From: Chthonomonadales bacterium
GTDB taxonomy: Bacteria > Armatimonadota > Chthonomonadetes > Chthonomonadales > CAJBBX01
Reading direction: 5' to 3'
Assembly (NCBI GenBank): GCA_027459625.1
Contig: DAIDHP010000019.1
Span: 1 to 64,000, forward strand
DNA: 64,000 nucleotides
A model generated the notes under the pieces. It saw nothing but the letters and a program-made list of their open reading frames with translations, did not search any database and had not been told where the DNA came from. The position numbers and the translations under genes were made by a program. Numbering within the stretch: position 1 is the first letter of the stretch; every line of letters starts with the position of its first letter. Positions 7,760 to 63,501 of the stretch are shown here, in pieces.

Positions 7760-7774
7760 TGGCATGCAATTTGC
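7760..7774 (+). promoter_or_regulatory. Sigma-54 (-24/-12) promoter of the first PEP-CTERM gene
   Basis: TGGCATG-CAAT-TTGC followed by A matches the sigma-54 consensus with the required GG-N10-GC spacing. It lies 153 bp upstream of the GTG at 7927 in an AT-rich spacer. It is one of six such sites in the window. Confidence 0.8.
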
Positions 7775-7926: not shown

Positions 7927-8637
7927 GTGAAACTTAATTACCATGTATTGTTGTCGGCAATCTTCGCGATGGTTTTAAGTATTTTTGTAAGCGTGGGGTC
8001 CGGCGCTCAGATGCTTGAGATTACCTCACGTACGAGCTTGGGGGGAACCGATATAGTGGATTGGGGTCAGTTTGGCATAAATACGGTTTTCCAACAAGAT
8101 AGTTTCTTATCTAGTAACGGGCTCACGGGCCAAATTAGCGACAGCAGCAACTCTTTATTAGAGATACTCCAGCAAGAAAACGGCTGGGGGGGTAATTTCA
8201 CTCAAGGTGATTACGTGCTGTGGGATCAGACAAGCAGCGGGTCTCATCTGAACATCTCCTTCAGCACACCCGTATCCACTGCGGGAGCCAACATCCAGTC
8301 GGATTTCTACGGACCTTTCAACGCTACGATATCCGCATATGATTCAAGTAGTAATCTCCTTGCCACGTATACCGAATCAGGCGATTCCAATGGAAACAAC
8401 GATGGTTCCGCGATTTTTCTGGGGGTTTCCAGCCCCACGTCGAACATTTCCGTAATTCAATACACAACGGATTCGAGCACAGGCAATTATGACTTCGCCA
8501 TCAACCAGCTTGGAATCAGGCAGAATGCCTCAACCCCCGTTCCAGAGCCGGGCGATCTCCTCTTCCTTCTCGCGGCTGGAACGCCCGGGTTGGCGTTGCT
8601 CCTGAAGAGACGATATTTCCGTATTCAAAAGGGATAA
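7927..8637 (+). CDS. PEP-CTERM sorting-domain protein, copy 1
   Basis: A 236-residue exported surface protein. It starts at GTG 7927, with AGGAG six bases upstream. The signal peptide is about residues 1-27 (ending SGAQ). The body is a beta-rich domain of unknown function, with 'GLTGQISDSS', 'LNISFSTPVS' and 'AGANI' strands. The tail is a typical exosortase signal: VPEP near residue 204, a hydrophobic helix, then KRR. Exosortase is expected to cleave the tail after export and attach the protein to the surface or matrix. It is closely related to the gene at 11969, including long stretches of near-identical DNA, and more distantly to the frameshifted gene at 14999. A sigma-54 promoter precedes it and a strong terminator follows. 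Confidence 0.88.
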   Translation: MKLNYHVLLSAIFAMVLSIFVSVGSGAQMLEITSRTSLGGTDIVDWGQFGINTVFQQDSFLSSNGLTGQISDSSNSLLEILQQENGWGGNFTQGDYVLWDQTSSGSHLNISFSTPVSTAGANIQSDFYGPFNATISAYDSSSNLLATYTESGDSNGNNDGSAIFLGVSSPTSNISVIQYTTDSSTGNYDFAINQLGIRQNASTPVPEPGDLLFLLAAGTPGLALLLKRRYFRIQKG

Positions 8638-11884: not shown

Positions 11885-11899
11885 TGGCACGCATCTTGC
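11885..11899 (+). promoter_or_regulatory. Sigma-54 (-24/-12) promoter of the second PEP-CTERM gene
   Basis: TGGCACG-CATC-TTGC followed by A is a perfect consensus site, 70 bp upstream of the ATG at 11969. An AT-rich stretch (TTATTAAAAATATATAAC) lies just upstream. Confidence 0.85.
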
Positions 11900-11968: not shown

Positions 11969-12682
11969 ATGAAATTTAGTTCTCATGTAGTATTGTCGAC
12001 AATCCTTGCGGTAGTTTTAGGAATTTTTATATGCTCGGGGTCCGGCGCTCAGATGCTTGAGATCACCTCGCGCACCGGTTTGGGAGGAACCGACTTGGTG
12101 AATTGGAGTCAGTTTGGCCCAACTAATACCACCTTAACCGGTCTTTCCAATTACATATCCAATAACGGGCTCACGGGCCAGATTGGCGACAGCAGCGCCG
12201 CATCCTTGGAGATACTCCAGCAAGAAAACGGCTGGTCGGGTAATTTCACTCAAGGTGATTACGCGCTGTATGATCAGGGTAGCGGGTCGAATCTGAACAT
12301 CTCCTTCAGCACACCCGTATCCGCTGCGGGAGCCAACATCATGTCGAACCCGTATGGTTTTTTTAACGCTACGATAACCGCATATGATTCAAGTAGTAAT
12401 CTCCTTGCCACGTATACCGAACTCGGTAATTCAAATGGAAACAACGATGGTTCCGCGATTTTTCTGGGGGTTTCCAGCCCCACGTCGAACATTTCCCTAA
12501 TTAAATACACAACGGATACGAGCGTAAATAGCACATATCCCGGCTTCGCAATCAACCAGCTTGGTATCAGGCAGAATCCCTCAACAGCCGTTCCGGAGCC
12601 AGGCGATTTAGCTTTCCTCCTTGCCGGTTTCCTCCCAGGATTGGCTTTTCTAATGAAGAGACGTTATGCCAAAGCCGTATGA
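11969..12682 (+). CDS. PEP-CTERM sorting-domain protein, copy 2
   Basis: A 237-residue exported protein. AAGGAG lies six bases before the ATG. The signal peptide (to about residue 27), beta-rich core and C-terminal VPEP-helix-KRR signal match copy 1 almost throughout; the segment 'SNGNNDGSAIFLGVSSPTS' is identical in both proteins and nearly identical in DNA. Differences cluster at the N-terminal third, including a 'LTGLSNYIS' insertion-like stretch. It is probably the product of a recent duplication. The likely role is a surface or matrix protein processed by an exosortase encoded outside the window. Confidence 0.88.
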   Translation: MKFSSHVVLSTILAVVLGIFICSGSGAQMLEITSRTGLGGTDLVNWSQFGPTNTTLTGLSNYISNNGLTGQIGDSSAASLEILQQENGWSGNFTQGDYALYDQGSGSNLNISFSTPVSAAGANIMSNPYGFFNATITAYDSSSNLLATYTELGNSNGNNDGSAIFLGVSSPTSNISLIKYTTDTSVNSTYPGFAINQLGIRQNPSTAVPEPGDLAFLLAGFLPGLAFLMKRRYAKAV

Positions 12683-14927: not shown

Positions 14928-14942
14928 TGGCATGATATTTGC
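14928..14942 (+). promoter_or_regulatory. Sigma-54 (-24/-12) promoter of the third PEP-CTERM gene
   Basis: TGGCATG-ATAT-TTGC followed by A, 57 bp upstream of the ATG at 14999. The promoter looks intact although the gene is frameshifted. Confidence 0.8.
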
Positions 14943-14998
14943 AACACATGATATTAAAGGGACTGGATTCCCTCACTTTCAAGATGGAGGTAACTATC

Positions 14999-15708
14999 AT
15001 GCTTTTCAAGAAGAGAGTAATTGCCGTATTCGCGTCCGCAACGTTCATGATTTTCTGTATGAGCAAGACAGCCAAGACGCAGGTGTTTTTTATTGGTGAC
15101 AGAGGGAGTTTGAATGCGACGGATTCAGTGGATTGGAGCCAATATGGAACAGGGCGAAATTGATTTCAGACCCATCCAATTTCAACTCATTGGGTGGAAT
15201 CACCGGTACCATTAGCGATTCAATGGACGGTCAATTATCCATTAATAAATCCGCTGATGGCTGGTGGGGGAATCTGTTGCCACACGGATCGATAATTTTG
15301 TGGGATTGGACAGGTAATAGCAGTTTGAACATCACATTCGATACTCCCATATCATCGGCGGGGGCGAATATCATGCCGTATAATGGGGGAGGGTATACGG
15401 CAAGCATATCAGCCTATGATAGCCATAATAGCTTATTAGGCATCTATAGCGGAGCAGGATATGCAGATTCCTCGAGTGGCCTTCCCGCCGTGTTTTTAGG
15501 TGTATCCAGTGACACGCCGAATATTTCAAGGATTGATTTTAAAATGGTCAACAGAGGAGATTCATTTGCAATCAATACGTTAGACATAAAATATGATCCA
15601 TCCGCTCCCGCAAAATCTGTTCCGGAACCCGGGTGTTTACCGTTTCTTTTATCCGGTGTTTTTCCCGGATTGGCGTTCCTGTTAAAGCGGCGATTATCAT
15701 TAGCCTAA
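14999..15708 (+). pseudogene. PEP-CTERM sorting-domain protein, copy 3, frameshifted
   Basis: The ATG at 14999 has TGGAGG upstream. It codes for a signal peptide and the conserved 'ATDSVDWSQYG' segment, then the frame closes at 15163. From about 15150 another frame carries on with LISDPSNFNSLGGITGTISDS, the beta core, the AGANIMP motif, and ends VPEPGCLPFLL-helix-LKRR, a complete sorting signal. One lost base (or two gained) in 15145-15165 would explain it. It is clearly related to copies 1 and 2 but more diverged, so this is an older paralog. Unless ribosomal frameshifting occurs, only a 54-residue exported peptide is made. Confidence 0.8.
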
Positions 15709-30692: not shown

Positions 30693-31421
30693 TCATTTCG
30701 CCCCGCGGCATGTAAGCACAGCGGGAATGGTCTTGAAAATAATCTTAATGTCGTTCCAAAAAGTCATACTTTCAATGTAGAGTATATCCAACTCAACCCA
30801 ACGTTTGAAGTCTATGTTGCTTCTACCACTGATCTGCCATAAACAGGTCAAGCCTGGCTTCACAGCCAGACGTCCGAACTCATATCTGGTGTATTTTGCA
30901 ACCTCATGGGGCAAGGGAGGACGGGGACCAACGATACTCATGTCGCCGAAGAGAACGTTCACCAACTGGGGCAACTCGTCTATGCTCAGTTTTCTAAGAA
31001 TTCGACCAACTCGGGTGATTCTCGGATCATTTTCAATCTTGAAAACAGGACCGGAGCATTCATTCAGATGCAACAGGTCTTTTTTCTTCGACTCTGCATC
31101 CACGCACATGGAGCGGAATTTATAACAGGTGAAATGCCGTCCCCCCACGCCGACGCGGGTTTGCTTGAATATGACAGGGCCCTTCGAGGTCAGCTTGATG
31201 AACAACGCCGCTAACGCGTAAACCCACGAAAACAGAATCAAACCGACCAACGAGAAAAGAATATCGAGCATCCGCTTCGCTTTTGCATATCGAACATCGC
31301 AAACCGGTATATGGCTGATATAATCAGGATCGAACGTGGACGAGGGATAGAGTGAAGTTTGCACTCCCATCTCCAGAGGATGCAAACTGATGGAATTTTG
31401 TGTTTGTTCCGTTAATGCCAT
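30693..31421 (-). CDS. Initiating sugar-phosphate (polyprenyl glycosylphospho-) transferase
   Basis: Transfers a sugar-1-phosphate from UDP-sugar to undecaprenyl phosphate, the first step of exopolysaccharide repeat-unit assembly. The 242-residue protein is the short type: a cytoplasmic N-tail, one hydrophobic helix (about 50-72), then the catalytic domain with FKQTRVGVGGRHFTCYKFRSM, RKLSIDELPQLVNVLFGDMSIVGPRP and KPGLTCLWQISGRS. It lacks the multi-helix N-terminal part of WbaP. A sigma-54 promoter precedes it, so it may be switched on together with the operon at 55.3 kb and the PEP-CTERM genes. Confidence 0.92.
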   Translation of the reverse strand: MALTEQTQNSISLHPLEMGVQTSLYPSSTFDPDYISHIPVCDVRYAKAKRMLDILFSLVGLILFSWVYALAALFIKLTSKGPVIFKQTRVGVGGRHFTCYKFRSMCVDAESKKKDLLHLNECSGPVFKIENDPRITRVGRILRKLSIDELPQLVNVLFGDMSIVGPRPPLPHEVAKYTRYEFGRLAVKPGLTCLWQISGRSNIDFKRWVELDILYIESMTFWNDIKIIFKTIPAVLTCRGAK

Positions 31422-31511: not shown

Positions 31512-31526
31512 GCAAAAGCCATGCCA
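31512..31526 (-). promoter_or_regulatory. Sigma-54 (-24/-12) promoter of the sugar-phosphate transferase gene
   Basis: On the minus strand TGGCATG-GCTT-TTGC followed by A, 91 bp upstream of the ATG at 31421. AT-rich DNA lies further upstream (31540-31610). Confidence 0.8.
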
Positions 31527-48680: not shown

Positions 48681-49736
48681 TCATGTTTCGAATCCTCCGG
48701 AACTCAAATAATTTGGTTTCATTAACTGAATGCTTATAATGAGTCTGCCCAAAAGTTGGTTCGCATTGGGATTTAACTTGTCGAACTCAATGGCGATCTG
48801 ATAAACGGGGAGTTTTTCAGTATGAGAAATATCCGTCACACGCACTACGCTTCCGGATATGGTGAGCGGGTTTTCAATACTCGACCATTCATTCCCCCAA
48901 CGGACATCCACCCGGGACCCCTTGGGCAGGGGCGTCATGGAGTTCAAAGCCACCCCGCCGAGACTGATATCCCTGCCAAGACCACTGATCTCTTTCCTTG
49001 TGGTTTGTTCCCCGGATATCTCGACCTTGATGGGATAGGAGATTGCGGTGCGGGGATGGCGTCGGCGTTGCCGTCGCTTGATGACGGAGGGCTTGCGAAT
49101 GGTCCATGTCAAGCCATTCTCGTCGATATGTAGCACCGATGATGTGAACTCGTAGAGACCATCCTCGCCTAGTATTCGTATGTCGATCGATTTACTTTTG
49201 ACAGGAAATGCATTGTCGAGGGTGATTTGAAAAGATTCCGGTGCTGTGGAGATCACTTTCGCGGGGATCATCTCTTCGGGAGTGGTCTTGAAACTTCCTG
49301 CCAGAAGGTACTGATCGGGAACGATGGTTTGAAAGGAAAACAAGGGAGGAGCGAAATGGCGTTCTCCGCCACCGGAAATAGACGAACGAATGAGCGATAC
49401 GAGGGTGTCGAGGTCGAATGGCTTGTAAAGAGTCTTCAAACCTCCAGACTCCCAGACACTACCCTCGAGATTTGGCGTTTCATAAGCGGACATAGCTATG
49501 AACGGCGTCCAAGGCGCGGCGGATTTCAAACGGGGTAATGCGGCAATCCCGTCCATATCAGGAAGATGTAGATCCAATAGAACGACATGAAAGGTTTTTC
49601 GAATAAGTAATTTAAGTGCGTCTGTAGCATTGGCTGCGCTATCCACCTCGAAACCGTAATTCAGCAATTTGGCTTCGAGGATCCTGCGGAAATTCTGATC
49701 GTTGTCTACTACCAACACAGATTTGCGGGTAATCAT
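48681..49736 (-). CDS. Receiver-PilZ protein (c-di-GMP-linked response regulator)
   Basis: 351 residues. Residues 1-120 are a CheY-like receiver (VLVVDNDQ acids, phospho-acceptor Asp in VVLLDLHLPDMDG, Lys in LYKPFD). The C-terminal part from about 215 is a PilZ domain: RRQRRRHPR supplies the RxxxR arginines and DISLGGVAL the [D/N]xSxxG motif, so c-di-GMP binding is expected. There is no DNA-binding domain; the output is probably direct control of exopolysaccharide or secretion machinery. It has its own sigma-54 promoter and lies directly downstream of the sigma-54 activator gene. Confidence 0.87.
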   Translation of the reverse strand: MITRKSVLVVDNDQNFRRILEAKLLNYGFEVDSAANATDALKLLIRKTFHVVLLDLHLPDMDGIAALPRLKSAAPWTPFIAMSAYETPNLEGSVWESGGLKTLYKPFDLDTLVSLIRSSISGGGERHFAPPLFSFQTIVPDQYLLAGSFKTTPEEMIPAKVISTAPESFQITLDNAFPVKSKSIDIRILGEDGLYEFTSSVLHIDENGLTWTIRKPSVIKRRQRRRHPRTAISYPIKVEISGEQTTRKEISGLGRDISLGGVALNSMTPLPKGSRVDVRWGNEWSSIENPLTISGSVVRVTDISHTEKLPVYQIAIEFDKLNPNANQLLGRLIISIQLMKPNYLSSGGFET

Positions 49737-49823
49737 TGTTTAATCCTACGGCAAGATGTATCGCTATTTCCTTTCCGAAGGTGAATAACCAGCATTTATA
49801 CCAGCCCTTCATAAAACCTTAAT

Positions 49824-49838
49824 GCAATAAACATGCCA
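49824..49838 (-). promoter_or_regulatory. Sigma-54 (-24/-12) promoter of the receiver-PilZ gene
   Basis: On the minus strand TGGCATG-TTTA-TTGC followed by A, 88 bp upstream of the start at 49736 and just beyond the stop of the activator gene. This lets the activator control its downstream neighbour separately from its own operon. Confidence 0.8.
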
Positions 49839-51166: not shown

Positions 51167-53785
51167 CTAAGTGTAAATGTCTGGCAACTCTGTTGTGTAT
51201 TGTTCATTGATGGGAATCAATGGCAAATCTCCACTATATGGCAGTGAGAGGCGGAAGGAGGTCCCGGAGCCCTCTCTTCGAAACACTTCAACATTTCCAT
51301 TGTGATTTTCAACAATTCTCTTCACGATGGAAAGCCCAAGTCCTGTCCCCTTTGTCTTGGTTGTGAAGAATGGCTGGAATATTTTATCGATTTTATCTTC
51401 CGGTATGCCGCAACCCGTATCATCGAACTGAGCGCGGACCATGCCGGCAGGCTCATCCATCGATGTGGATATGGTCAAAGTCCCTCCGACTTTCATGGCT
51501 TGAACGGCGTTGATGATGATATTTCGGATCACCTGTTCGATCTGTTTTCTGTCCACGATTATGTCCGGAAGTCCGTCGGAATGATTGTACTCCACCTTCA
51601 CCCCTGACTCCTGGATGAAGCTGTTTAAAAAACGAACGGACCGATCGACCAGTTCGTTTATGCTGGTTTGCTCCAACCTCATATACATTGGACGCGCGAA
51701 ATCAAGCAGATCCATGGTGATCTGGCTCAACGCATCCACCTCTTCAATGATGATATCCAGAAACTCTCTGAAAGGCGCCTCGTTGGCGTAATCATTTCGT
51801 ATGAGTTGCGCCGCCCCTTTGATGGAACTCAGCGGATTACGCACCTCATGCGCCATTTTCGCTGCAAATTCCCCGATGTCCGCCAGTCTGCGGATATGGT
51901 TCATCTCCTGTTCCATGAGAGTTTCGTGAGTCACATCCTCAACCAATATAACCGCTCCCTGCCTTTGACCCATTCGATCGATAAGCGGGGAAAGAAGGAG
52001 ATTTAAAAATCTCTTCGTATTATCCTTGGTGTGGTAAGGTTGCTTGTAGTGTTGCGCAGCCTCTCCGTCCGTTAAACATTTATTGATGAGCTTCTCCAAG
52101 GAGATAGCCTCCATGGGGGGCAATTCTAACTGTTCTATAAGCTGTTGGCAACTCAACTCCACATGCCTTTGCTCCGTCAAGCCCCATATCTGCTCGAATG
52201 CGTTATTCCATCGGAGTACTTTTCCTTCGGAGTCCAGCACCAGCACTCCTCCGACCATGGAGCGCAATATATTATCGGTCTGATTCGCAAGACGGTTTAT
52301 CTCCTGGTACCTTTGTTCGCGGTCTTCGTATAATTGCGCGTTTTCGATGGCTATGCCTGCCTGATTCACGAATGTGGTCAGAAGGTCCACCGCTTCAGGG
52401 CGAATGATCCTCTCGGAGGAACGGTTATCCGCGACAATCACTCCGATGGTCTGCCCTCTCGATATGATCGGAATGGCTATGAACGCGTTTGCGCCAAGCG
52501 TGCGTGCGAATCCGCGCATGGGTTGCAAGGCGTTTTCGATGTCGTATTCAACAATCGGCATCTGTTTCTTCGCCACCATCCCTATCACTCCTTCACCGAT
52601 CTTCGCCGACGAGGAATGAACGATGTCCTCCTTGTATCCCCTCCAAATCCTAGGGATGTATTTGCGAGCATGCTTGTCATGCAGGTACAGGCAACATCGG
52701 TCAAACTTCACCACATCCACAATGTTGTCAGCAACATGCTCAAGCAGATTGTTGAGATCGAGATGCGAAATCACCGCTTGGGTTAATTCCGAGATCGTGT
52801 AGAGTTCGACCAAGCGGTGATTGACATCATCGTAAAGCTGTTTGTTATTGATCGCCAATGCCGCCTGACTGGCGAAAACCGAAAAGAGGCGCATGTCATC
52901 CGTGGTAAAGTCCGGCAGCGTTTTCCTGCGTCTTATGGATAATACACCAGTGACGACCCCTTTTTCATCCTTCATGGGCACGATCATGGAGGAACCGATA
53001 CCCGGCATGGGAGATACGCCTTCCAGTCTGGGATCGTTTTCCACGTCGGAGATCACCATCGCCTCTCCTGTTTGCGCCACTTTGCCCGCAATCCCTTCTC
53101 CTATCTCTCTTTGCGCTAGATCCACCACCTCTTCGGACAAACCGAAGCTTGCGGCGATTGTCAACGCGTTTGTATCCATGTTCAAACGCATTAAAGAGCA
53201 GGCTTGGGCGTCCATCACCTTGGCGGCTTTCTCCGTAATGATATCCAGGAGTTGTGTTAACTCCATGCTGTCCATCGCCCTGCCAATTTCATAAATGGTG
53301 GACACCTCCCGTATGCTTCTATTTGCTTGTTGATGCAACAATCGGGATTGGTCCTGTAAAAAAATCCTGTCGAAAGCGCTTGAGATAGTCCCTGAAACAA
53401 TCCGCAAGGCATCCTTGGAATGTTGGTTTCTTAGCCCCAGGATCATGAAGGTTCGTGGTGCGAAACGGACGGGCAGGGATTCAAAAAATATCTGATCATC
53501 AGAAGATGAGGAAACCGAAGCTGGGTCGTTTTCAGTCATGAATCTGTAATGCGCAAGGTATTCCAGCGCAAGCCGAGAGGAATCCCCAATGACGCAACGC
53601 GTGGGATTCTTTCCTTGGATATCCATCACCCCGGAATGAATCCATTTCGCGTCGTAGAGAACTCGAAGTGCTAAATCGGATGCTACGGGCGCGGAATCGG
53701 ATCCGGATAGGGTCTCTTGAAGATGTATCAGGGTTTGAAACAGACTTTCATCATCTTCAACCAAGTTCTGATTTTTCATTGTCAT
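51167..53785 (-). CDS. Cytoplasmic GAF-GAF-PAS sensor histidine kinase
   Basis: About 872 residues from ATG 53785 (ATG 53779 also possible; a TTG at 53866 is unlikely). No membrane segment. An N-terminal region of about 150 residues is unassigned; a coiled-coil follows. GAF1 is about 177-318, GAF2 about 347-485, PAS about 500-620. The NtrB-like kinase core has H-box MAHEVRNPLSS (His646), N-box QVIRNIIINAVQAM, and G boxes DDTGCGIPED, FFTTKTKGTGLGL. It should phosphorylate the regulator encoded immediately downstream. Two GAF domains suggest a soluble ligand. It is analogous to PrsK of PEP-CTERM systems, but orthology is not shown. Confidence 0.9.
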   Translation of the reverse strand: MTMKNQNLVEDDESLFQTLIHLQETLSGSDSAPVASDLALRVLYDAKWIHSGVMDIQGKNPTRCVIGDSSRLALEYLAHYRFMTENDPASVSSSSDDQIFFESLPVRFAPRTFMILGLRNQHSKDALRIVSGTISSAFDRIFLQDQSRLLHQQANRSIREVSTIYEIGRAMDSMELTQLLDIITEKAAKVMDAQACSLMRLNMDTNALTIAASFGLSEEVVDLAQREIGEGIAGKVAQTGEAMVISDVENDPRLEGVSPMPGIGSSMIVPMKDEKGVVTGVLSIRRRKTLPDFTTDDMRLFSVFASQAALAINNKQLYDDVNHRLVELYTISELTQAVISHLDLNNLLEHVADNIVDVVKFDRCCLYLHDKHARKYIPRIWRGYKEDIVHSSSAKIGEGVIGMVAKKQMPIVEYDIENALQPMRGFARTLGANAFIAIPIISRGQTIGVIVADNRSSERIIRPEAVDLLTTFVNQAGIAIENAQLYEDREQRYQEINRLANQTDNILRSMVGGVLVLDSEGKVLRWNNAFEQIWGLTEQRHVELSCQQLIEQLELPPMEAISLEKLINKCLTDGEAAQHYKQPYHTKDNTKRFLNLLLSPLIDRMGQRQGAVILVEDVTHETLMEQEMNHIRRLADIGEFAAKMAHEVRNPLSSIKGAAQLIRNDYANEAPFREFLDIIIEEVDALSQITMDLLDFARPMYMRLEQTSINELVDRSVRFLNSFIQESGVKVEYNHSDGLPDIIVDRKQIEQVIRNIIINAVQAMKVGGTLTISTSMDEPAGMVRAQFDDTGCGIPEDKIDKIFQPFFTTKTKGTGLGLSIVKRIVENHNGNVEVFRREGSGTSFRLSLPYSGDLPLIPINEQYTTELPDIYT

Positions 53786-54213
53786 ATCCACTGTTATTGT
53801 CAAAAGGGATACGCAACGTCCTGTTAAAAGGGATGAGATGACCCGTGGGAGTCCTCTCCTCTTCAAATAGGGCGATTAAATTGCTTCCCGGCAATTGCCT
53901 GCCTGCAAAATATATATCCGTATGCCATTATATCACATTCAATCTTTCGTAACAATTAAATGCAATTTCAAAAATCATTAAAAAAGCCTTATGGGAGTTG
54001 CATGACAAGCATGCGAAGCCATGGGCGCTAACCATTCAACGGAAGCGCGGGATCGCTGTATTCGGGCTATTTTTATCATGAAGCGAATGCAGCGGGATTG
54101 TCTTCCTTCGCATCGGATTGAGATAGATATCATAATATGAGTCGTGAGACTGAATCGATTTGCATTTTGACGAACGTAAAAATCAAAAAAGGAAATCAGG
54201 AAAGGATAGGAAT
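53786..54213. other. Spacer between divergent kinase and dehydrogenase genes
   Basis: About 428 bp with no credible frame (the upstream extension of the kinase frame has no good start). It should hold divergent promoters; no clear consensus pair is visible. Confidence 0.4.
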
Positions 54214-55178: not shown

Positions 55179-55193
55179 TGGCATGCAACTTGC
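55179..55193 (+). promoter_or_regulatory. Sigma-54 (-24/-12) promoter of the exopolysaccharide operon
   Basis: TGGCATG-CAAC-TTGC followed by A, 135 bp upstream of the first gene at 55328. It differs by only two bases from the site of PEP-CTERM gene 1 when the last spacer base and the following base are compared. Confidence 0.8.
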
Positions 55194-55327: not shown

Positions 55328-56248
55328 ATGATGAGACTAAAAAGTTATATTCTCCTGGCGGATCCCGCATGGCTGGATGTCAGCGTTCCGTCCTATTACC
55401 CCTATGTAAATGAGATTTTGGCTAGTTGCGATGCAGCCGGAAGAGGTTGGACCGGCGTATCGCTTCCCATTGACCAAAGCAAGATGATCCTTCGCGCACT
55501 GGATACGGAATACAAAATCCGTATGAGCGAGGGTGTTTTTTATCGACCGGATCTTCCTCTGGGGGATCGGGACACTTTTCAGCGAAACTCCGCGCTCATC
55601 GACCTTGGTTCCGACGCCGACTGGATTCTTCAGATAGACACGGATGAGTTTCCCCCCGACATCGACGCCCTGCACGATGCATTGAGATTCGCTGATGAAA
55701 GGGGGCTGTGCGCCGTTGAGTGGCCCATGAGAGTGCTCTATCGCCGCCTGCGAACCGGGGAATATCTGGAGGTGTGCCAAAAGGACGGAGGGGATCACTA
55801 TGAGTACCCTGGCGCAGTGGCTGTGAAACCTATGACGCATCTGAGTGAAATGCGGTGCGTCCGAAAACCTTTTCTCCGTCCCATTGTCGAAGGAGACACC
55901 TCAAGTTTACAAATTCAACGACCTCCGATGGAAGGAGAGTGCAGGGACTACAGGATAACTCGCGAGAGTGCAATCATTCATAACTCTTGGGCAAGGGAGC
56001 CATCCTCCGTTTGGAGGAAGCTGAGATCCTGGGGGCATCACGATGTGAAAAAGTTGTGGGTAGCTTATTACCTGCAATGGCTCCTCTCTCCTCTGTTTTG
56101 GAGAACCATGGCGGACTTTCACCCCTTTGCAAGAGGGTTATGGCGATCTCTTAGAATTAGCGATGCGAAAATCCCGATATCACGCTCTTATTCGGGTAAC
56201 GCCGCGCCAAAAAGAACACATGAATATCAGGGGCGAACGGTGCTATGA
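55328..56248 (+). CDS. Putative glycosyltransferase (GT2/GT92-like), first gene of the operon
   Basis: 306 residues. The clearest motif is WILQIDTDEFPP, a DxD-type metal and nucleotide-sugar site as in GT2/GT92-like enzymes, after 'RDTFQRNSALIDLG'. A His/Trp-rich segment (AIIHNSWAREPSSVWRKLRSWGHH) follows at about 215-240. There is no signal peptide; a hydrophobic stretch near the C-terminus may touch the membrane. GGAG precedes the ATG. The stop overlaps the next start by 4 bp. Donor and acceptor cannot be told. Confidence 0.7.
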   Translation: MMRLKSYILLADPAWLDVSVPSYYPYVNEILASCDAAGRGWTGVSLPIDQSKMILRALDTEYKIRMSEGVFYRPDLPLGDRDTFQRNSALIDLGSDADWILQIDTDEFPPDIDALHDALRFADERGLCAVEWPMRVLYRRLRTGEYLEVCQKDGGDHYEYPGAVAVKPMTHLSEMRCVRKPFLRPIVEGDTSSLQIQRPPMEGECRDYRITRESAIIHNSWAREPSSVWRKLRSWGHHDVKKLWVAYYLQWLLSPLFWRTMADFHPFARGLWRSLRISDAKIPISRSYSGNAAPKRTHEYQGRTVL

Positions 56249-56814
56249 ATGAGTGGATTGTCAGTATCCGACATAAACTCCATCCCATCCGAGAGATATG
56301 GGATGATTTTCGCCTTTTTCTACTCACCGTTTGCGGATATGTTCCTTCGCATGGGTTCCGTCGTATGGTTTACCTGGCATTCGGGCTGCATATCGGGCGG
56401 ACAAGTTCCATCCATTGGCGAGCGCGCTTTTTTCGCCCGGAGGGAGTGCGCATTGGTGATTATACAACCATAGGAAATGACGCTTTCTTGGACGGACGAG
56501 AGGGGTTGAGTATCGGGAATTGCGTCAATATAGCGGCGGAAGTGCGCATATACACCCGTGAGCATGATATTGATGATCCCATGTTTCGGGAAGTGGGGGG
56601 AGCCATCGTGATTGAGGACTATGCCTATATCGGCTCTCGCGTGACGGTCCTTCCAGGAGTGCATATCGGCTACGGCGCCGTAGTTGGCAGCGGAGCGGTG
56701 GTAACCAAAAACGTCGAGCCATTCACTTTGGTTGGAGGCGTGCCTGCAAAACCGATACGCCGAAGAAACGAAAATCTGGAATACAAATTGGGATACGCAA
56801 AACGTTTCCAGTGA
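56245..56814 (+). CDS. Left-handed beta-helix acyltransferase
   Basis: A 189-residue hexapeptide-repeat O-acetyltransferase of the WcaF/maltose-acetyltransferase type. Repeats run from about 60 (RIGDYTTIGNDAFLDGR) to 170, with the catalytic His in IYTREHDIDDP, and AYIGSRVTVLPGVHIGYGAVVGSGAVV, the acetyl-CoA site. It probably acetylates the exopolysaccharide or a precursor. It begins inside the end of the first gene of the operon and is followed by a GT2 gene after 18 bp. Confidence 0.88.
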   Translation: MNEWIVSIRHKLHPIREIWDDFRLFLLTVCGYVPSHGFRRMVYLAFGLHIGRTSSIHWRARFFRPEGVRIGDYTTIGNDAFLDGREGLSIGNCVNIAAEVRIYTREHDIDDPMFREVGGAIVIEDYAYIGSRVTVLPGVHIGYGAVVGSGAVVTKNVEPFTLVGGVPAKPIRRRNENLEYKLGYAKRFQ

Positions 56815-56832
56815 ATTACGGAGGAGGAAGTC

Positions 56833-57735
56833 ATGAAGCTTCGCACCGTCATTGTCGTTCCGCACCATTCCGGAGTGGCGAACACCATGGAATGTCTGCG
56901 TTCTCTGGATCAACAGACCGATCGGCGTTTTCTGACGGTTCTGGTTCAAAACGGGAGCATGGATCCTCTAAACGACTCCGAAACAAGCTCCTTTCATAAC
57001 TCATGCGAGATCCGAATCCGGGAGAATTCGGGTTTTACGGGTGCGGTCAATACGGGAATACGATACGCACTAAATACGGAGGCGGAATTCATATGGTTAG
57101 TGAACAATGACACCATCGTTCCTCCGAACACTCTCTCCTCGCTTGTTCTCGCCGCCGAAACACATCCGGATTGCGCCGCCTTCACCCCTCTGATATATCG
57201 GCATCCTTCCAAGGATGTTTGGTTCGCGGGGTCATCCTACGACGAGAATCGTATGTTCGCATTTCACACTCAGACGGTTCCCGATGTCAAAGTGAATGAT
57301 GTTATCGATATTCCATGGTCGACCGGATGTGCGATGTTTCTGAGACGGTCCGCCTTGGGGGAATTCGCTCCGTTCGATGAGAGATTTTTCCTCAAATGGG
57401 AGGATGTCGATTTTAGCCTGAGGTTGAGATCCAATGGATGGAGAATCGCGCTGGTTTGGAATTCCACGCTCTATCACAAAGTCAGTCGGGCATGTCCGGA
57501 GGAGTCACAGTTATCGATCTACTACGACACACGCAACCATCTCCTTTTCTCGAAGAAGCATGCTAAAAAACGAGATCGTAAGCGGACGGAACGTGGGATA
57601 ATCGCCTATCATCTTCTCGAAGCCCTTCGTAAATATCGACACGGCGCCCCTTTCAATCGAACTGTGCTCCCCTGTGTTTTGGGAGTTCGGGACCATATGC
57701 AAGGGCGATACGGACGGAGGCAGTGGATGAGATGA
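56833..57735 (+). CDS. Family 2 glycosyltransferase
   Basis: 300 residues. The start TVIVVPHHSGVANTMECLRSL, then 'IRENSGFTGAVNTGIRYAL', 'EFIWLVNNDTIVPP' (DxD-type NND) and 'RFFLKWEDVDFSLRLRSNGW' (ED and base region) are the rhamnosyltransferase-like GT2 pattern. A GGAGGAAG ribosome site is present. The stop overlaps the next start by 4 bp. It has a last basic region but no membrane helix. It adds one sugar to the lipid-linked repeat unit. Confidence 0.87.
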   Translation: MKLRTVIVVPHHSGVANTMECLRSLDQQTDRRFLTVLVQNGSMDPLNDSETSSFHNSCEIRIRENSGFTGAVNTGIRYALNTEAEFIWLVNNDTIVPPNTLSSLVLAAETHPDCAAFTPLIYRHPSKDVWFAGSSYDENRMFAFHTQTVPDVKVNDVIDIPWSTGCAMFLRRSALGEFAPFDERFFLKWEDVDFSLRLRSNGWRIALVWNSTLYHKVSRACPEESQLSIYYDTRNHLLFSKKHAKKRDRKRTERGIIAYHLLEALRKYRHGAPFNRTVLPCVLGVRDHMQGRYGRRQWMR

Positions 57736-58760
57736 AAATCGCGATCATCTGTCAGTATCTGCCTTCCGGTTGCAAGTTCGGGGTGGGGTATCTAGTGAGC
57801 GCATTCGCGGATGAGTTATGCAAGCGCGGATGGGATGTCACTGTGATTAGCCGATATACCGCGTTTCCAGAAGCGTTATACAAATGTAAAACCATTTCCT
57901 GCGAGGATCGGTGGAGTGTTTTTCGTTTCGCGTTTAAGTTAAGGGAGATTGATTGGAGTGAATACGATATTCTGCATGCATTCACGGACGATTTTTTACT
58001 ATTCCATTTGCCGACGCCCCCACGTGTTCGCACCATGACCGGTTCCAGTCTCTTGGAGGCGATTCACATCGCAGGGGCGAAGGAAAAGGCTCGAATGCTC
58101 TTTCTTTGGATGACGGAATGGGTCTCGTGTTTTGTAGCGAACCGGGTCGTGTGCATCTCGGAGAATACCCGTCATAGCTTTCCGTGGCTGAAGGATGTCG
58201 TTCCTTGCGGGGTGGATTTAACGGTTTTTCATCCATCATCCGAACGAGCTCCGTTTCCAGTGATTCTTTTCGTTGGCACTTGGAAATGGAGAAAGAGAGG
58301 GCGATTGCTGATGGATCTCTTTCGTGAACAAATTCGCCCCGCCATTCCGAACGCTCAATTGTGGATGGTATGCGATGACGCTCCCGACGCCCCCGGAGTG
58401 ATCCAATTCGGCAAGCTGGACACTCCATCTCTCGCCAAACTGTACCGCCAAGCCTGGGTGTTTTGTCTGCCCAGCACATACGAAGGGTTCGGCATTCCCT
58501 ATGTGGAGGCTATGGCTTCCGGTCTGCCTGTTGTCGCCACCCCGAACCCGGGTGCAAAAGAGGTGTTAGGGAATGGATCGCATGGCGTTGTATGCGATCC
58601 GAAGCGTTTGGGAGATGAGATCATCTATCTATTGTCGGACAAATCCGCTCGTGAGGAATTGGGCGAAAAGGGATTGAAACGCGCACGTGATTACGATCTG
58701 CAAAATGTCGTGAGCACTTACGAAAAGTTGTATCTTCAGCTTATCTCGGGTGCGGCGTAA
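57732..58760 (+). CDS. Family 4 glycosyltransferase
   Basis: 342 residues from ATG 57732, which overlaps the preceding TGA and has GGAGG 11 bases upstream. GT-B fold: an N-terminal domain (IAIICQYLPSGCKFGVGYLVSAFADEL) and a C-terminal nucleotide-sugar domain with PFPVILFVGTWKWRKRG, LPSTYEGFGIPYVEAMASGLPVVA (the E-x7-E motif), and a final helix. A retaining transferase for the exopolysaccharide. No membrane segment. Confidence 0.9.
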   Translation: MKIAIICQYLPSGCKFGVGYLVSAFADELCKRGWDVTVISRYTAFPEALYKCKTISCEDRWSVFRFAFKLREIDWSEYDILHAFTDDFLLFHLPTPPRVRTMTGSSLLEAIHIAGAKEKARMLFLWMTEWVSCFVANRVVCISENTRHSFPWLKDVVPCGVDLTVFHPSSERAPFPVILFVGTWKWRKRGRLLMDLFREQIRPAIPNAQLWMVCDDAPDAPGVIQFGKLDTPSLAKLYRQAWVFCLPSTYEGFGIPYVEAMASGLPVVATPNPGAKEVLGNGSHGVVCDPKRLGDEIIYLLSDKSAREELGEKGLKRARDYDLQNVVSTYEKLYLQLISGAA

Positions 58761-58783
58761 AAATACGAGGGGGGAATTACAGG

Positions 58784-59980
58784 ATGGAGACAAAAACAGG
58801 AATGGGGAATGAGCACAATATTGTTATTATTTCGATGGAGTATTGGGACGATATATGGCGCAGAAGTCAATTTATCGCAGATGGATTGGCAATGGCCTCA
58901 CCTCACTCGAAGGTGCTATATGTCGAACTCTCGCGTCATCTCCTGAAATCACAATTCCTTCCAGCTTTGCAAGGAGTTTCAAGCCCCAATAATGCGCCTG
59001 GCAATCTGTATGTATTCAAACCTGTTCATATCTTCCCATGGGAAAGCGAAAAGGGAGGGAAAATCAATGAACTCTCTCTCTGCAAACAGATATGCCGGAC
59101 GATTCGCCATTTAGGCATGCATGACCCTGTGCTTTGGATAAATCTTCATGATGCTTGGAATCTGCCGGCAATGTGCTCTAACTCAGGCGTGATTTACGAC
59201 ATCACGGATGATTGGACTGCGAATGACCAACCCGCCGGGAAAAGAGAGAGAGTGATGCAAATGGACCGAACGCTATGCAAAACAGCGGATTTGGTTGTGG
59301 TATGTTCCCGAAAGCTGCTTAACGACAAAGCCTCCGTTTGTAAGCGCATCGCGCTCATTCCCAATGGAGTGGAGGTGGATAAATATCGATATGTTTCCAC
59401 CGAGATACCGAATCCGCGATGGAAAAAAGGCGAGTTGCCTCGTCCTATCCTGGGATATACCGGGACATTGCATGCGGATAGATTGGATGTTTCTCTCTTA
59501 TGCGATATTGCGGAACGCAATCCCGCATCTTCCGTAGTGCTGCTCGGTCCCTGTTATCTTGGCGCGGAACATCTGCGTAAGCTGAAATCGTATCCCAACA
59601 TCCATGTTTTCCCGCCTGTCGCCTATTCGCACATCCCAATCATAATGCGAGATATCGATTGCTACATCGTGCCTCATCTGGTTAATGATTTCACGGAGAG
59701 CCTCAATCCCTTGAAACTTTGGGAGTGCCTGGCAAGCGGCAAGCCAGTGGTCTCCACACGCGTGGCGGGTTTCAACGATTATCCCGAATTAGTCTATCTG
59801 GCTGACACAGTCGAGGAGATTGCAAATCAGATAAGTGTGGCGCTGAACGAGGCGTCATGTATGCGTAATCTGCGAATTGATGTAGCTGAGCAGAACAGTT
59901 GGGGGAGCAGGGTGCAATATATTCAAAACTTGATTGAATCCGTTGTCAAGGAAAGGAACGCGGACAATGTGCGCGCGTGA
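58784..59980 (+). CDS. GT-B glycosyltransferase (TuaH/WsaF-like)
   Basis: 398 residues. The N-terminus (IVIISMEYWDDIWRRSQFIADGLA) with 'VIYDITDDWTAND' and 'ADLVVVCSRKLL', and the C-terminal 'RPILGYTGTLHADRLDVSLL' and 'ESLNPLKLWECLASGKPVVST' (E-x7-E), put it in the TuaH-like group of teichuronic or exopolysaccharide glycosyltransferases. Ribosome site AGGGGGGAATT is loose. It overlaps the next gene by 14 bp. Confidence 0.85.
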   Translation: METKTGMGNEHNIVIISMEYWDDIWRRSQFIADGLAMASPHSKVLYVELSRHLLKSQFLPALQGVSSPNNAPGNLYVFKPVHIFPWESEKGGKINELSLCKQICRTIRHLGMHDPVLWINLHDAWNLPAMCSNSGVIYDITDDWTANDQPAGKRERVMQMDRTLCKTADLVVVCSRKLLNDKASVCKRIALIPNGVEVDKYRYVSTEIPNPRWKKGELPRPILGYTGTLHADRLDVSLLCDIAERNPASSVVLLGPCYLGAEHLRKLKSYPNIHVFPPVAYSHIPIIMRDIDCYIVPHLVNDFTESLNPLKLWECLASGKPVVSTRVAGFNDYPELVYLADTVEEIANQISVALNEASCMRNLRIDVAEQNSWGSRVQYIQNLIESVVKERNADNVRA

Positions 59981-60926
59981 ACCGAAAATCTCCGTTATCA
60001 TCGTCACATGGAATACTAGGGAAATGACTCTTCGCTTGCTTAAGTTTTTTTTTGAGGAAGCACTGATGGAGAGTTACGAGGTTATTTTAGTCGATAACAA
60101 CTCCACCGATGGAACGGTTACAAGCGTATTGACACAATTCCCTCGCGTGCGAGTTCTATGCAATTCCAGCAATCTAGGCTTTGCAATCGCATGCAATCAG
60201 GCGGCATCCTTAGCTTCCGGGCGATATCTCCTCCTGCTTAACACAGATGTCATTTTGAATCCTGGGGTTATCTCATGCCTTGAACAGGTTTTGGATGCGA
60301 ATCCGGATAAGGCAATTGTGGGTCCAAAGTTATTAAACGCTGACGGGTCTGTTCAGCTTTCCCGATATCGTTTGCCAACTCCTTTCAGGGCTTTCTGCGA
60401 TCATCTGGGATTAACCGCATGGATGCCGGAATCTCCTGTTTTCGGAGACTATCGTAACGCCGCCATGGACAAGGTCCAGGAGGTTGAGTATCTCATAGGA
60501 GCCTGTCTGCTTGTTCGCAAATCCGCATTCGCTTCCGTGAATGGTTTCGATGAATCCTTCTTTTTCTATGGAGAGGAGGCGGACCTTTCCATGAGGTTGA
60601 GGAAATTGGGGTGGGGAATTCTCTTCGTACCGGAAACATGCGCCGTTCATTTGGGCGGTCGAAGCGGGGAGACCGTCAGCAACCAAGTCTTTTCAGAGTT
60701 CCGCAAGGCACAGGAAAGATTTTATCTGAAACATTATGGTCTATTCGGGTTATCATGGTTTCGCGGCACTCTGTTTTTCGGATCCTTCATTCGGTGCATG
60801 CTTTACGGGGTTGTGCAGTTAATGTATCCAAAGCCGGAATTAATGGCTAAACGCAATCTTTGGAAAAGAATCTTTTTATGGAATATCGGGTTTCGTAATC
60901 AGGGGCTGGACAACCGAATCAGATAG
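59967..60926 (+). CDS. Family 2 glycosyltransferase (rhamnosyltransferase-like)
   Basis: 319 residues from ATG 59967, with AAGGAAAGGA upstream; an upstream ATG at 59934 lies deeper in the preceding gene. VIIVTWNTREMTLRLL, VDNNSTDGTV, NLGFAIACNQAA, LLLNTDVILNPG (DxD) and GFDESFFFYGEEADLSMRLRKLGW are the standard pattern of WcaA/RfbN-like rhamnosyl- or N-acetylhexosaminyltransferases. The last 60 residues are hydrophobic-basic and may attach to the membrane. A 147-bp gap separates it from the polymerase-like gene. Confidence 0.9.
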   Translation: MCAREPKISVIIVTWNTREMTLRLLKFFFEEALMESYEVILVDNNSTDGTVTSVLTQFPRVRVLCNSSNLGFAIACNQAASLASGRYLLLLNTDVILNPGVISCLEQVLDANPDKAIVGPKLLNADGSVQLSRYRLPTPFRAFCDHLGLTAWMPESPVFGDYRNAAMDKVQEVEYLIGACLLVRKSAFASVNGFDESFFFYGEEADLSMRLRKLGWGILFVPETCAVHLGGRSGETVSNQVFSEFRKAQERFYLKHYGLFGLSWFRGTLFFGSFIRCMLYGVVQLMYPKPELMAKRNLWKRIFLWNIGFRNQGLDNRIR

Positions 60927-61073
60927 ACGAATTCACCAAATTCCTTTGAATGCATTCCTTTCGATGATCTCCACAACAGTGCACTATAGCCAATATCCAT
61001 ATTGTTTTTTACGGTGGAGCGAGCCATTTGACTTTGTTCAAGATGTCTCTTCGCATTTCGAATAGGCAAGCGG

Positions 61074-62393
61074 ATGACGCCATTATCTATATTCAGGCAA
61101 ATGAATATCAAATCACTTGGAGTATCCGTCCCAGCTCTCGCCATGGTTACGTTTTGCGCTTTGGGCGGGGTATTCATCCTGTTTTTGCCGAATGGACAAA
61201 TTCCTCTTTTATCCGCAGCTATCTTTTTAATCGTTTTAACAATTCTCTTCCCTTTACCATGCGCTTTTTTGGCTATCGGTTTGATCCCACTCCAGCAAGC
61301 GTTTCTCGGCGAGGATGCTCGCGTGCATGTCAGCCTTTCCGATACCCTGATGGTAGCCAGTTTGGCTGGAGTGGCGATTCGCTATCCATTCATAATTCGT
61401 TCATGGTTTCGGGACATGCCTATGATCTTTTGGGCGTATCTTCTCTTTCTCTTCATCTCTCTTGTTCGCCGAGGGGATCCGGTATCAGGCGGTCTCTCTC
61501 TTGCTAGGATGGTTTTGAATATATATGCAGGCATAGGAGTGGGATATCTTTTAGGTTCCAAAAGAAAGGGATTGCAAGAAGGGCTTTCTCTCTATGTGAT
61601 ATTATGCGTTCTCCTATCACTCCTCATTCTTTATCTATCTTCGATCGGGGGCGATGAGAAGGCGAACTATCCGATGGAATTGAATAAAAACGCCGTGGGA
61701 ATCACGATTGGTTGCGCCGTAGTAATGCTTTCCGCTTTTATTATGGAGTGGCGGGAACTTCCGATACAGGTGGCTCTTTCCTTGGCTCTAGGAGTTTGTA
61801 TTGCGGGATTATCCTTCTCATTATCTCGTGGGGCGTGCCTCGCGACGGCTTTTGGAGTGATGCTGCTGGCGTGGTTTCAGAGGAGCCTGAGAACCTTTCT
61901 TGCGGTACTTCTCTGTCTATCGGTCATATACCTCGTCCTTCTTAATTTCGGATCAGCGAATGTAAAGTCTTACGCCTTGGATTTCGGCGAAGAATCCTAC
62001 TCCGCGAAGGAGCGAATTCGAACCATGAGCATGAACTGGGGTTTTTTTATGGAATCGCCTCTGCTTGGGGAAGGATTAGGGCTGCGGAAGGAGGCGGAAC
62101 CCCATAACATTCTGCTAACGACCCTATCGGAGACTGGGATAATCGGCTTGCTGTTCATAATCGCCGTTTTCTCACGGGGATATTACGAGATATATCAAGC
62201 AATCACTCATTATGAAATCAACAGGATGGAACGCGCCATGTTGTTGTGCGCGGCAGCCATTTTTCTTATGACCCTCGGTCATGGGATGATAGATGTTTAT
62301 TGGAGAAGGGGAGCGGGGGCATTGGCTTGGGTGTTTGTAGGTTATGCGTTTGCCTCGCGACGCATTGGAATTGAGGGCTCGAAAAATGTATAG
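61074..62393 (+). CDS. O-antigen ligase / Wzy-like polymerase family membrane protein
   Basis: 439 residues with about 11 hydrophobic helices. In the Wzy_C region a large outer loop carries 'SLSRGACLATAFG', 'MSMNWGFFMESPLLGEGLGLR' and then 'EPHNILLTTLSETGIIGLLF', the (G)xGxG...HN...E motif of O-antigen ligases and polymerases. It would polymerise or ligate the undecaprenyl-linked repeat units made by the neighbouring glycosyltransferases. ATG 61101 is an alternative start. No flippase (Wzx) gene is present inside the window. Confidence 0.88.
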   Translation: MTPLSIFRQMNIKSLGVSVPALAMVTFCALGGVFILFLPNGQIPLLSAAIFLIVLTILFPLPCAFLAIGLIPLQQAFLGEDARVHVSLSDTLMVASLAGVAIRYPFIIRSWFRDMPMIFWAYLLFLFISLVRRGDPVSGGLSLARMVLNIYAGIGVGYLLGSKRKGLQEGLSLYVILCVLLSLLILYLSSIGGDEKANYPMELNKNAVGITIGCAVVMLSAFIMEWRELPIQVALSLALGVCIAGLSFSLSRGACLATAFGVMLLAWFQRSLRTFLAVLLCLSVIYLVLLNFGSANVKSYALDFGEESYSAKERIRTMSMNWGFFMESPLLGEGLGLRKEAEPHNILLTTLSETGIIGLLFIIAVFSRGYYEIYQAITHYEINRMERAMLLCAAAIFLMTLGHGMIDVYWRRGAGALAWVFVGYAFASRRIGIEGSKNV

Positions 62394-63501
62394 CAACTGT
62401 CATCCCCTATATGTGATGCAAGTTCTGGATACCAATGGGATCGCTGGAATCGAAAGGCACGTTCTTACATTGGCGGAGGAATTGATCGCTCAAGGAGTAA
62501 CCTGCGAAATTGTGACCAATGGCTCTAACGCTTTAACCAGGCTCGCATCTCAATCCGCCATACCTTTTGGAACCGCGTTCAATGGCGATACTTTTCCCGG
62601 AAAATGTTGGCGTCTTTTTCGATATGTCCGCGAAAAGAATCCGGATATACTGCACGCCCATAACGGCAATTCCAAGATGGCGGCGGTGTTGGTTGGCGGG
62701 CTTTTGAACAAACCCGTCATCTTCACACAGCATTTTCTCAGAACGCGTGCGGATCATTCCTTTTTGCTCCGTAAACCGCTAAGCTATTGTCATGCGAAAG
62801 CCAATAGTCACTTGAAAAGAATCATCGCGGTTTCAGAATGCGTCGCCGAGGGGATGAGAAAGCGATATGGACTGAAACTGGCGAATTTGGCGGTGGTTCC
62901 TTTGGGTGTCAAAGAGCCTGCGTCACGAAATGTCTCGGAGAGCCGTGAATGCGCACCGCGATCCTCAGCCTGCCTGATTGCATACATAGGTCGATTGGAA
63001 TCGGAGCGACAGCCTGAATTGTTGATTGACGCGCTTGGCATCGTGAACGAATGGACGGATGCGTGGGGGGCTTGTATCATTGGCGAGGGCAGTCGGCTGA
63101 GATCCTGCAGGCAATTGACCGATAGATTGCATCTTTCATCCAAAATCACGTTCACGGGTTGGATGGAGGATGTGACGGATATTTTAAACGCTGCGGATGC
63201 CCTTGCTAACCCTTGCGCGGTGGAATCTTTCGGGCTTTCCACCTTGGAGGCTATGGCTAACGGTAAACCCGTGGTGGCGATTAATGGGAATGGCTCATCT
63301 GAACTTGTGCAAGACGGCGAAACAGGGATACTCACCGAAAACAACCCCTTGGCTTTTTCTGGAGGAATATTAAGATTGATTGAAAATCCCGAACGTGCGA
63401 AAGAGATGGGGAGCAATGGGAAGAGAAGATTTCAAGAGCATTACACCGCCAGAAAAATGACCGAATCGATTATCGCATTATACAAAGAAGCTGCGACCTA
63501 A
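62386..63501 (+). CDS. Family 4 glycosyltransferase
   Basis: 371 residues from ATG 62386, which overlaps the end of the polymerase gene by 8 bp and has a GAGGG upstream. 'VMQVLDTNGIAGIERHVLTLAEELIAQG' is a GT4 beginning, followed by 'HAHNGNSKMAAVLVGGLLNKPVIFTQH', 'ACLIAYIGRLESERQPELLIDAL' and 'NPCAVESFGLSTLEAMANGKPVVAINGNG' (E-x7-E). It is the last gene of the operon; its stop overlaps that of the convergent gene by 4 bp. Confidence 0.9.
   Translation: MYSNCHPLYVMQVLDTNGIAGIERHVLTLAEELIAQGVTCEIVTNGSNALTRLASQSAIPFGTAFNGDTFPGKCWRLFRYVREKNPDILHAHNGNSKMAAVLVGGLLNKPVIFTQHFLRTRADHSFLLRKPLSYCHAKANSHLKRIIAVSECVAEGMRKRYGLKLANLAVVPLGVKEPASRNVSESRECAPRSSACLIAYIGRLESERQPELLIDALGIVNEWTDAWGACIIGEGSRLRSCRQLTDRLHLSSKITFTGWMEDVTDILNAADALANPCAVESFGLSTLEAMANGKPVVAINGNGSSELVQDGETGILTENNPLAFSGGILRLIENPERAKEMGSNGKRRFQEHYTARKMTESIIALYKEAAT

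Follow-up and report, generated by a model that had tools for sequence, protein, structure and literature searches.

The stretch of DNA analysed here (the window) comprises 64,000 nt of a contig from a Chthonomonadales bacterium, and its minus strand carries, in the 5′ to 3′ direction, genes for a histidine kinase, a sigma-54 activator and a protein that combines a receiver with a PilZ domain, with a putative sigma-54 site in the gap before the last of these (Table 1). This arrangement of a receiver-PilZ gene placed after the activator gene with a sigma-54 site between them, as given in a preliminary description, was confirmed by Pfam and by pattern matching. The activator-to-receiver-PilZ gap measures 122 bp and holds a perfect match to the −24/−12 pattern, which lies 20 bp past the activator stopcodon and has its first base 102 bp ahead of the receiver-PilZ ATG. 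The kinase and activator genes form a tandem, share one strand and are separated by 96 bp, in agreement with their description as one unit, and the true start of the kinase may be an internal ATG.

Table 1. Predicted genes and promoter-like sites in the window, with the evidence for each
Feature	Position	Strand	Basis
Sigma-54 site ahead of PEP-CTERM gene 7927-8637	7760..7774	+	Pattern match
PEP-CTERM protein, 236 aa	7927..8637	+	C-terminus VPEPG...LKRR
Sigma-54 site ahead of PEP-CTERM gene 11969-12682	11885..11899	+	Pattern match
PEP-CTERM protein, 237 aa	11969..12682	+	
Sigma-54 site ahead of third PEP-CTERM gene	14928..14942	+	Pattern match
PEP-CTERM protein, C-terminal part; frame broken upstream in this assembly	15133..15708	+	
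Bacterial sugar transferase (EPS_sugtrans TIGR03025), first gene of first exopolysaccharide run	30693..31421	-	
Sigma-54 site of first exopolysaccharide operon	31512..31526	-	Pattern match
Receiver-PilZNR-PilZ (YcgR-type) protein, 351 aa	48681..49736	-	Pfam, AlphaFold and VIA-align, sequence profile
Sigma-54 promoter-like site TGGCATGTTTATTGC (TGGCATG-TTTA-TTGC) of receiver-PilZ gene	49824..49838	-	Perfect −24/−12 pattern match; position kept in relatives
Sigma-54 activator, receiver + AAA+ + lid, without HTH, NAFTGA loop, 403 aa	49859..51070	-	Pfam, alignment
Histidine kinase GAF-GAF-PAS-HisKA-HATPase, 899 aa from TTG	51167..53866	-	Pfam
Candidate sigma-70 promoter of kinase-activator unit, TTGTTA-17-TATAAT with TG	53927..53955	-	Consensus match; region total not above chance
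Sigma-54 site of second exopolysaccharide operon	55179..55193	+	Pattern match
Second exopolysaccharide gene run	55328..63501	+	Pfam

Pfam assigned residues 7–116 of the receiver-PilZ protein to Response_reg (2e-21) and residues 223–334 to PilZ (2.4e-14), and both c-di-GMP motifs, RxxxR (225–229) and (D/N)xSxxG, are present. An alignment of 12 receiver-PilZ proteins, 20–91% identical to that of the window, showed D11, D55, K105, Q223-R225, R229 and G261 to be invariant, and the response regulator features (phospho-acceptor Asp, acidic pocket and Lys; D11, D55 and K105) are thereby kept in 12/12. The RxxxR motif is likewise found in all 12 and the Ser of (D/N)xSxxG in nine, with Gly replacing this Ser in the other three, and the Chthonomonas calidirosea protein has Ala at the receiver Ser/Thr position. 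Pfam matched PilZ in 12 family members, Response_reg in 11 and PilZNR (PF12945) in six; PF12945 was not matched in the window protein itself, for which the double barrel is predicted from fold and profile matches. AlphaFold predicts a receiver plus two beta barrels, with a mean pLDDT of 77.5 (81.3 for the C-terminal part alone). As receiver domains took up the VIA-align list of the full-length model, the PilZNR-PilZ part (residues 134–351) was folded and aligned alone, and matched VCA0042 (2rde_B; Z 13.4, rmsd 4.2, 192 aligned), MrkH (5ejl; Z 13.4, rmsd 4.4, 193 aligned), MotI/DgrA (5vx6; Z 12.4, rmsd 5.7, 192 aligned) and YcgR (5y6f; Z 11.5, rmsd 6.4, 196 aligned) over almost its whole length; no row of these lists served to exclude any family. 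The sequence profile of the protein matches YpfA/DgrA (5vx6) with an E-value of 1.7e-21. The barrel fold and the profile matches therefore argue for a phosphorylatable YcgR-type adaptor, and the receiver plus PilZ combination of the preliminary description can be refined to a predicted receiver fused to a PilZNR-PilZ pair, a c-di-GMP adaptor of the YcgR/MrkH/DgrA type. Ten GGDEF matches in the same genome could in principle supply c-di-GMP. Two family members without sigma-54 factor and activator (G005 and G007) have one and zero GGDEF matches, versus 8–14 in seven activator-bearing genomes, hinting, from these nine genomes, that c-di-GMP signalling and the regulon were lost together.

The AAA+ sigma-54 interaction domain of the activator was recognised (PF00158, 8.3e-73), with the GAFTGA loop present as the variant NAFTGA, and no HTH was found in the protein by Pfam (including HTH_8), as it stops 35 aa past the GNVREL sequence. 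An HTH hidden behind a frameshift was considered and rejected, as such a domain would not fit into the 122-bp gap and the activators of relatives stop at the same point. In the window's own genome (G000, a 4.55-Mb assembly, 96.6% complete), a single protein scored highly with PF00158 (246 bits) and the other six matches reached 25–34 bits, making the window activator the sole sigma-54 activator found in this genome. Among 61 genomes of the phylum, 40 have both a sigma-54 factor and a strong activator, 19 have neither, and only two have one alone (G014, 64% complete, and G058, 80% complete). Within the order (G000–G030), all 16 activator-positive genomes have exactly one strong activator, each lacking the HTH.

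We compared 37 activators, one from each of 37 of the 41 positive genomes (leaving aside G036, G037, G058, G059 and second activators). The alignment divided these into 26 without HTH, 10 whose tail is longer and one truncated at the end of its contig, and Pfam recognised HTH_8 in 9/37. The NAFTGA loop is found in 19 of the 26 HTH-less activators, with SAFTGA in two more, and in none of the 10 long-tailed ones, so that activators having lost the DNA-binding domain tend also to have an altered sigma-54-contacting loop. Francke et al. (PMC3162934) report the G1-to-N change among validated activators, Paracoccus and Ruegeria each having it in their only one, and therefore NAFTGA need not abolish function. 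In a tree of the 37 activators the loss of the HTH does not appear as a single clean event, and the receiver-PilZ label needs nine changes, with 34 of 500 shuffles as low, which makes this a weak test. Because the window activator has no HTH, it probably acts on every sigma-54 promoter in the cell.

The order of kinase, activator, promoter and PilZ gene, which the preliminary description had proposed to look for in related genomes, does recur. Receiver-PilZ is the next gene in 15 of the 25 genomes that have an HTH-less activator and readable downstream DNA, and these 15 belong to five families of the Armatimonadota (f1, f2, f3, f6 and f8). The gap contains a perfect sigma-54 site in 11/15 and a site with one mismatch in two more (G035 and G060), and no recognisable sigma-54 site was detected in the gaps of G004 and G012. 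For the first 14 genomes, perfect sites in 10 gaps compare with an expectation of 0.008 at the genome-wide site density when genomes are treated as independent; the fifteenth (G030) also has a perfect gap site, and its contig begins in the last 33 residues of the activator. A kinase gene was recognised upstream of the activator by regular expression in 18 of the 23 genomes with upstream DNA, and none was recognised this way in G006, G035, G038, G052 and G060. Another gene, with no receiver-PilZ, follows the HTH-less activator in the remaining 10/25 (G003, G017, G019, G025, G038, G041, G042, G052, G054 and G055), and the PilZ protein is therefore dispensable to the activator.

The pattern TGGCAYR-N4-TTGC has 21 exact matches in the window's own genome compared to seven for the backward-read control, suggesting that about a third of these sites are probably background, and at least four (L027, L029, L036 and L044) lie inside long same-strand frames. 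The window represents 1.4% of the genome and holds 6/21 sites (binomial P about 4e-7). The site excess ratio is mild in activator-less genomes (1.44, versus 2.69 in activator-bearing genomes); one genome (G022) has 58 perfect sites compared to 13 for the control, yet neither activator nor sigma-54 factor was found there, which reflects either missing contigs or another cause. Nine of the 21 sites have a PEP-CTERM ORF within 420 bp downstream, compared to 0/21 in the opposite direction, and these nine sites serve eight genes, with one gene having two sites. Of the other classes of sites, two are ahead of exopolysaccharide operons and one is ahead of the receiver-PilZ gene. The preliminary description had the activator switching on polysaccharide genes, and the sites ahead of the two polysaccharide operons agree with this, but the commonest targets are PEP-CTERM genes, a point absent from that description, as are the missing DNA-binding domain of the activator and its being the only one in the genome. 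In the first exopolysaccharide run, glycosyltransferase genes and nucleotide-sugar genes extend along the minus strand down to about position 23818, and the second encodes a 306-aa protein without Pfam match, a hexapeptide acyltransferase, glycosyltransferases and a Wzy-type ligase/polymerase. Three exosortase matches (PF09721) above the cut-off were found in the same genome.

Some further sites lie ahead of other genes. In three genomes from two families (L035 in G000, L199 in G001 and L158 in G033), a perfect site lies 95–174 bp upstream of a gene whose product has a prepilin-type N-terminus (FTLIELLVV or FTMVELLVV), and the two genomes of the genus each have one 53–71 bp ahead of the gene for a predicted membrane protein of roughly 210 aa (L043 in G000 and L197 in G001). 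The third of the tandem PEP-CTERM genes in the window (14943–15708, plus strand) is present as a 71-aa ORF followed by a 191-aa frame, with an intact 241-aa ORF in the same-genus genome (L191), and is either a pseudogene or an assembly error. A search for an enhancer motif upstream of the sites was also performed: CGGAAACG occurred five times when duplicate sites were counted, a run in which the sigma-54 motif itself stood out, but no k-mer exceeded the shuffles upstream of the 12 de-duplicated sites, a number that gives limited power.

Sites in other genomes showed a similar set of targets. We examined all 21 sites in G000, 17/17 in G001, 20/21 in G006 and 19/20 in G015 (in the latter two together with the receiver-PilZ site), 24/34 in G020, and six loci each in G013 and G033; the PEP-CTERM counts omit tails recognised by eye in G015 and G020 (PELSS, PELGSS and PGPSS) and a false regular expression match in G033 (L138). 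Five of the 17 sites in G001 precede PEP-CTERM genes, two precede exopolysaccharide genes and one the receiver-PilZ gene, and in G006 nine of the 20 sites examined are ahead of PEP-CTERM genes, with one more ahead of a sugar transferase. The G015 sites include ones ahead of a sugar transferase gene and of a Wzz/tyrosine-kinase-like gene (the latter recognised by eye), and those examined in G020 include three ahead of PEP-CTERM genes and others ahead of exosortase and receiver-PilZ. Homologues of the sugar transferase encoded by the first gene of the first exopolysaccharide run have sites in G001, G006 and G015.

The interpretation that we favour, with moderate confidence, is that a biofilm-matrix regulon is run from this locus, by the sole, HTH-less activator and a receiver-PilZ adaptor connected in a coherent feed-forward circuit. 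The GAF/PAS histidine kinase would phosphorylate the activator, and as this has no DNA-binding domain and no competitors, it could act from solution on every sigma-54 promoter, needing no enhancer site; these promoters would jointly drive the PEP-CTERM surface proteins, the exopolysaccharide operons and the receiver-PilZ gene. The receiver-PilZNR-PilZ protein would be a second response regulator, with a phosphorylatable receiver and a PilZ domain predicted to bind c-di-GMP, and most likely serves as a post-translational, YcgR-like adaptor on the matrix machinery. Its action would depend on c-di-GMP and perhaps also on phosphorylation by the same kinase, and output would then require both the kinase signal and c-di-GMP. 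What this scheme takes from the DNA sequence is the domain make-up, the promoter sites, the genes of the regulon, the presence of a single activator and the conserved order, and we infer the phosphotransfer, the binding of c-di-GMP, the activity of the promoters and the target of the PilZ protein, including the edge from receiver-PilZ to polysaccharide that would close the loop. The earlier interpretation is thus partly supported as a whole, with the layout speaking for the feed-forward topology and this last edge standing as an inference.

Two other roles for the receiver-PilZ protein are unlikely, but have some evidence in their favour. The protein could assist the HTH-less activator in transcription, binding DNA (as MrkH does) or the activator when loaded with c-di-GMP, and so supplying the lost specificity or gate. 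MrkH, described as a DNA-binding, c-di-GMP-dependent activator (PMC3161979), is indeed among the best structural matches, and in 15 genomes the gene adjoins an activator without DNA-binding domain; however, the fold matches non-DNA-binding YcgR-type proteins equally well, the sites have no shared motif upstream, and ten genomes with such an activator lack the receiver-PilZ neighbour. That the protein truly replaces the DNA-binding or gating function, as a MrkH- or FleQ-like c-di-GMP-dependent partner licensing the enhancer-less activator, we consider quite improbable; if true, it would make a phylum-level sigma-54 regulon into an AND gate of kinase and c-di-GMP, with two response regulators that share one kinase. 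The other role, to which we give the same low likelihood as to a transcriptional partner in general, is that of a motility brake like YcgR or MotI, where phosphorylation and c-di-GMP would cause the protein to halt a flagellar or type IV pilus motor when expression of the matrix genes begins. The closest solved relatives would fit such a brake, being YpfA/MotI by profile and YcgR by structure, as would a sigma-54 site ahead of a pilM-like gene recognised by eye (L030), and PixA of Myxococcus, with PilZ and a receiver, is described as regulating motility (PMC8316039), but it is surface and matrix genes that dominate the sigma-54 regulon.

A third role, which appears more doubtful, is that of a phosphate sink, in which the two receivers share one kinase and the induced receiver-PilZ protein diverts phosphoryl groups and so shuts the activator off by negative feedback, tuned by c-di-GMP. 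The full conservation of D11, D55 and K105 and the position of the gene, adjacent to the only tandem kinase and under the sigma factor with which the activator works, are consistent with such a sink, but a mere sink would need no conserved PilZ motifs, and identity between the two receivers is only about 30%. Finally, we rejected as very improbable the explanation that the site is decorative, a chance match in a gene read through from the kinase-activator unit, since despite a search of the gap giving no terminator above chance, perfect sites are found at the same place across relatives of five families.

The favoured reading, of a matrix regulon with a receiver-PilZ adaptor, bears on a question raised in the 2006 PEP-CTERM paper, which described a sigma-54 box only in Proteobacteria, with other regulators and DNA motifs still to be found (PMC1569441). 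The Armatimonadota system would be one such other case: a lone activator that has no DNA-binding domain would govern PEP-CTERM and exopolysaccharide genes as a sigma-54 regulon of the whole cell, which the genetic layout couples to c-di-GMP. The parts are already known: PEP-CTERM/RpoN regulons (PMC1569441, PMC9850573) have been described, as have activators that lack the DNA-binding domain (PMC3162934) and proteins of the YcgR and receiver-PilZ types (PMC8316039). The combination in Armatimonadota appears undescribed within the literature searched, where the papers found for sigma-54 (PMC4351183) and for exosortase and PEP-CTERM (PMC5539150) in this phylum appear to treat other subjects. The order is kept in distant relatives, which indicates a real control unit that can be tested in a little-studied phylum. 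One carrier (G015) is taken to be the cultured C. calidirosea T49, a member of the Chthonomonadales within the Armatimonadota, which opens the regulon to testing.

FlgR of Helicobacter serves flagellar genes and CtcC of Chlamydia serves late developmental genes, whereas the HTH-less activator described here has a PEP-CTERM/exopolysaccharide regulon plus a putative c-di-GMP adaptor. Both are 'type Ic' proteins, which like the window activator consist of a receiver and AAA+ domain with no HTH and are the sole activator (PMC3162934). The predicted adaptor itself shares the PilZNR and PilZ barrels and the RxxxR and (D/N)xSxxG motifs with YcgR, MotI (DgrA, YpfA), VCA0042 and MrkH, but has an extra N-terminal, putatively phosphorylatable receiver, a sigma-54 site and an activator gene as neighbour. 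PixA is also a response regulator with PilZ and receiver and binds c-di-GMP in vitro, but has the reversed order, with PilZ first, and no adjacent kinase gene according to its description (PMC8316039).

The closest parallel is with the proteobacterial PrsK/PrsR/RpoN system, with its tandem kinase and sigma-54 response regulator, PEP-CTERM sites, linked exopolysaccharide genes and exosortase (PMC1569441), and with RpoN-dependent expression of pepA (PMC9850573). Sites ahead of PEP-CTERM genes, the trait of a PrsK/PrsR-type regulon, are found here as well, in the 9/21 versus 0/21 reversed described above. In the PrsR case a second motif is described upstream (PMC1569441), whereas none was detected upstream of the 12 sites here. 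The kinase also differs from PrsK in being of the GAF/PAS type, and TIGR02916 (PrsK) is absent among its 25 best families. PrsR carries a Fis-type C-terminal HTH that the window activator lacks, and the latter scores 387 bits with TIGR02915 (PrsR), below the cut-off of 502.6, matching profile positions 1–374 of 445 only; plain PrsR membership is ruled out by the missing HTH and this score. The window system works like the PrsK/PrsR/RpoN regulon but with an activator that is not PrsR, and differs from it in its built-in c-di-GMP receiver-PilZ gene and in belonging to a different phylum.
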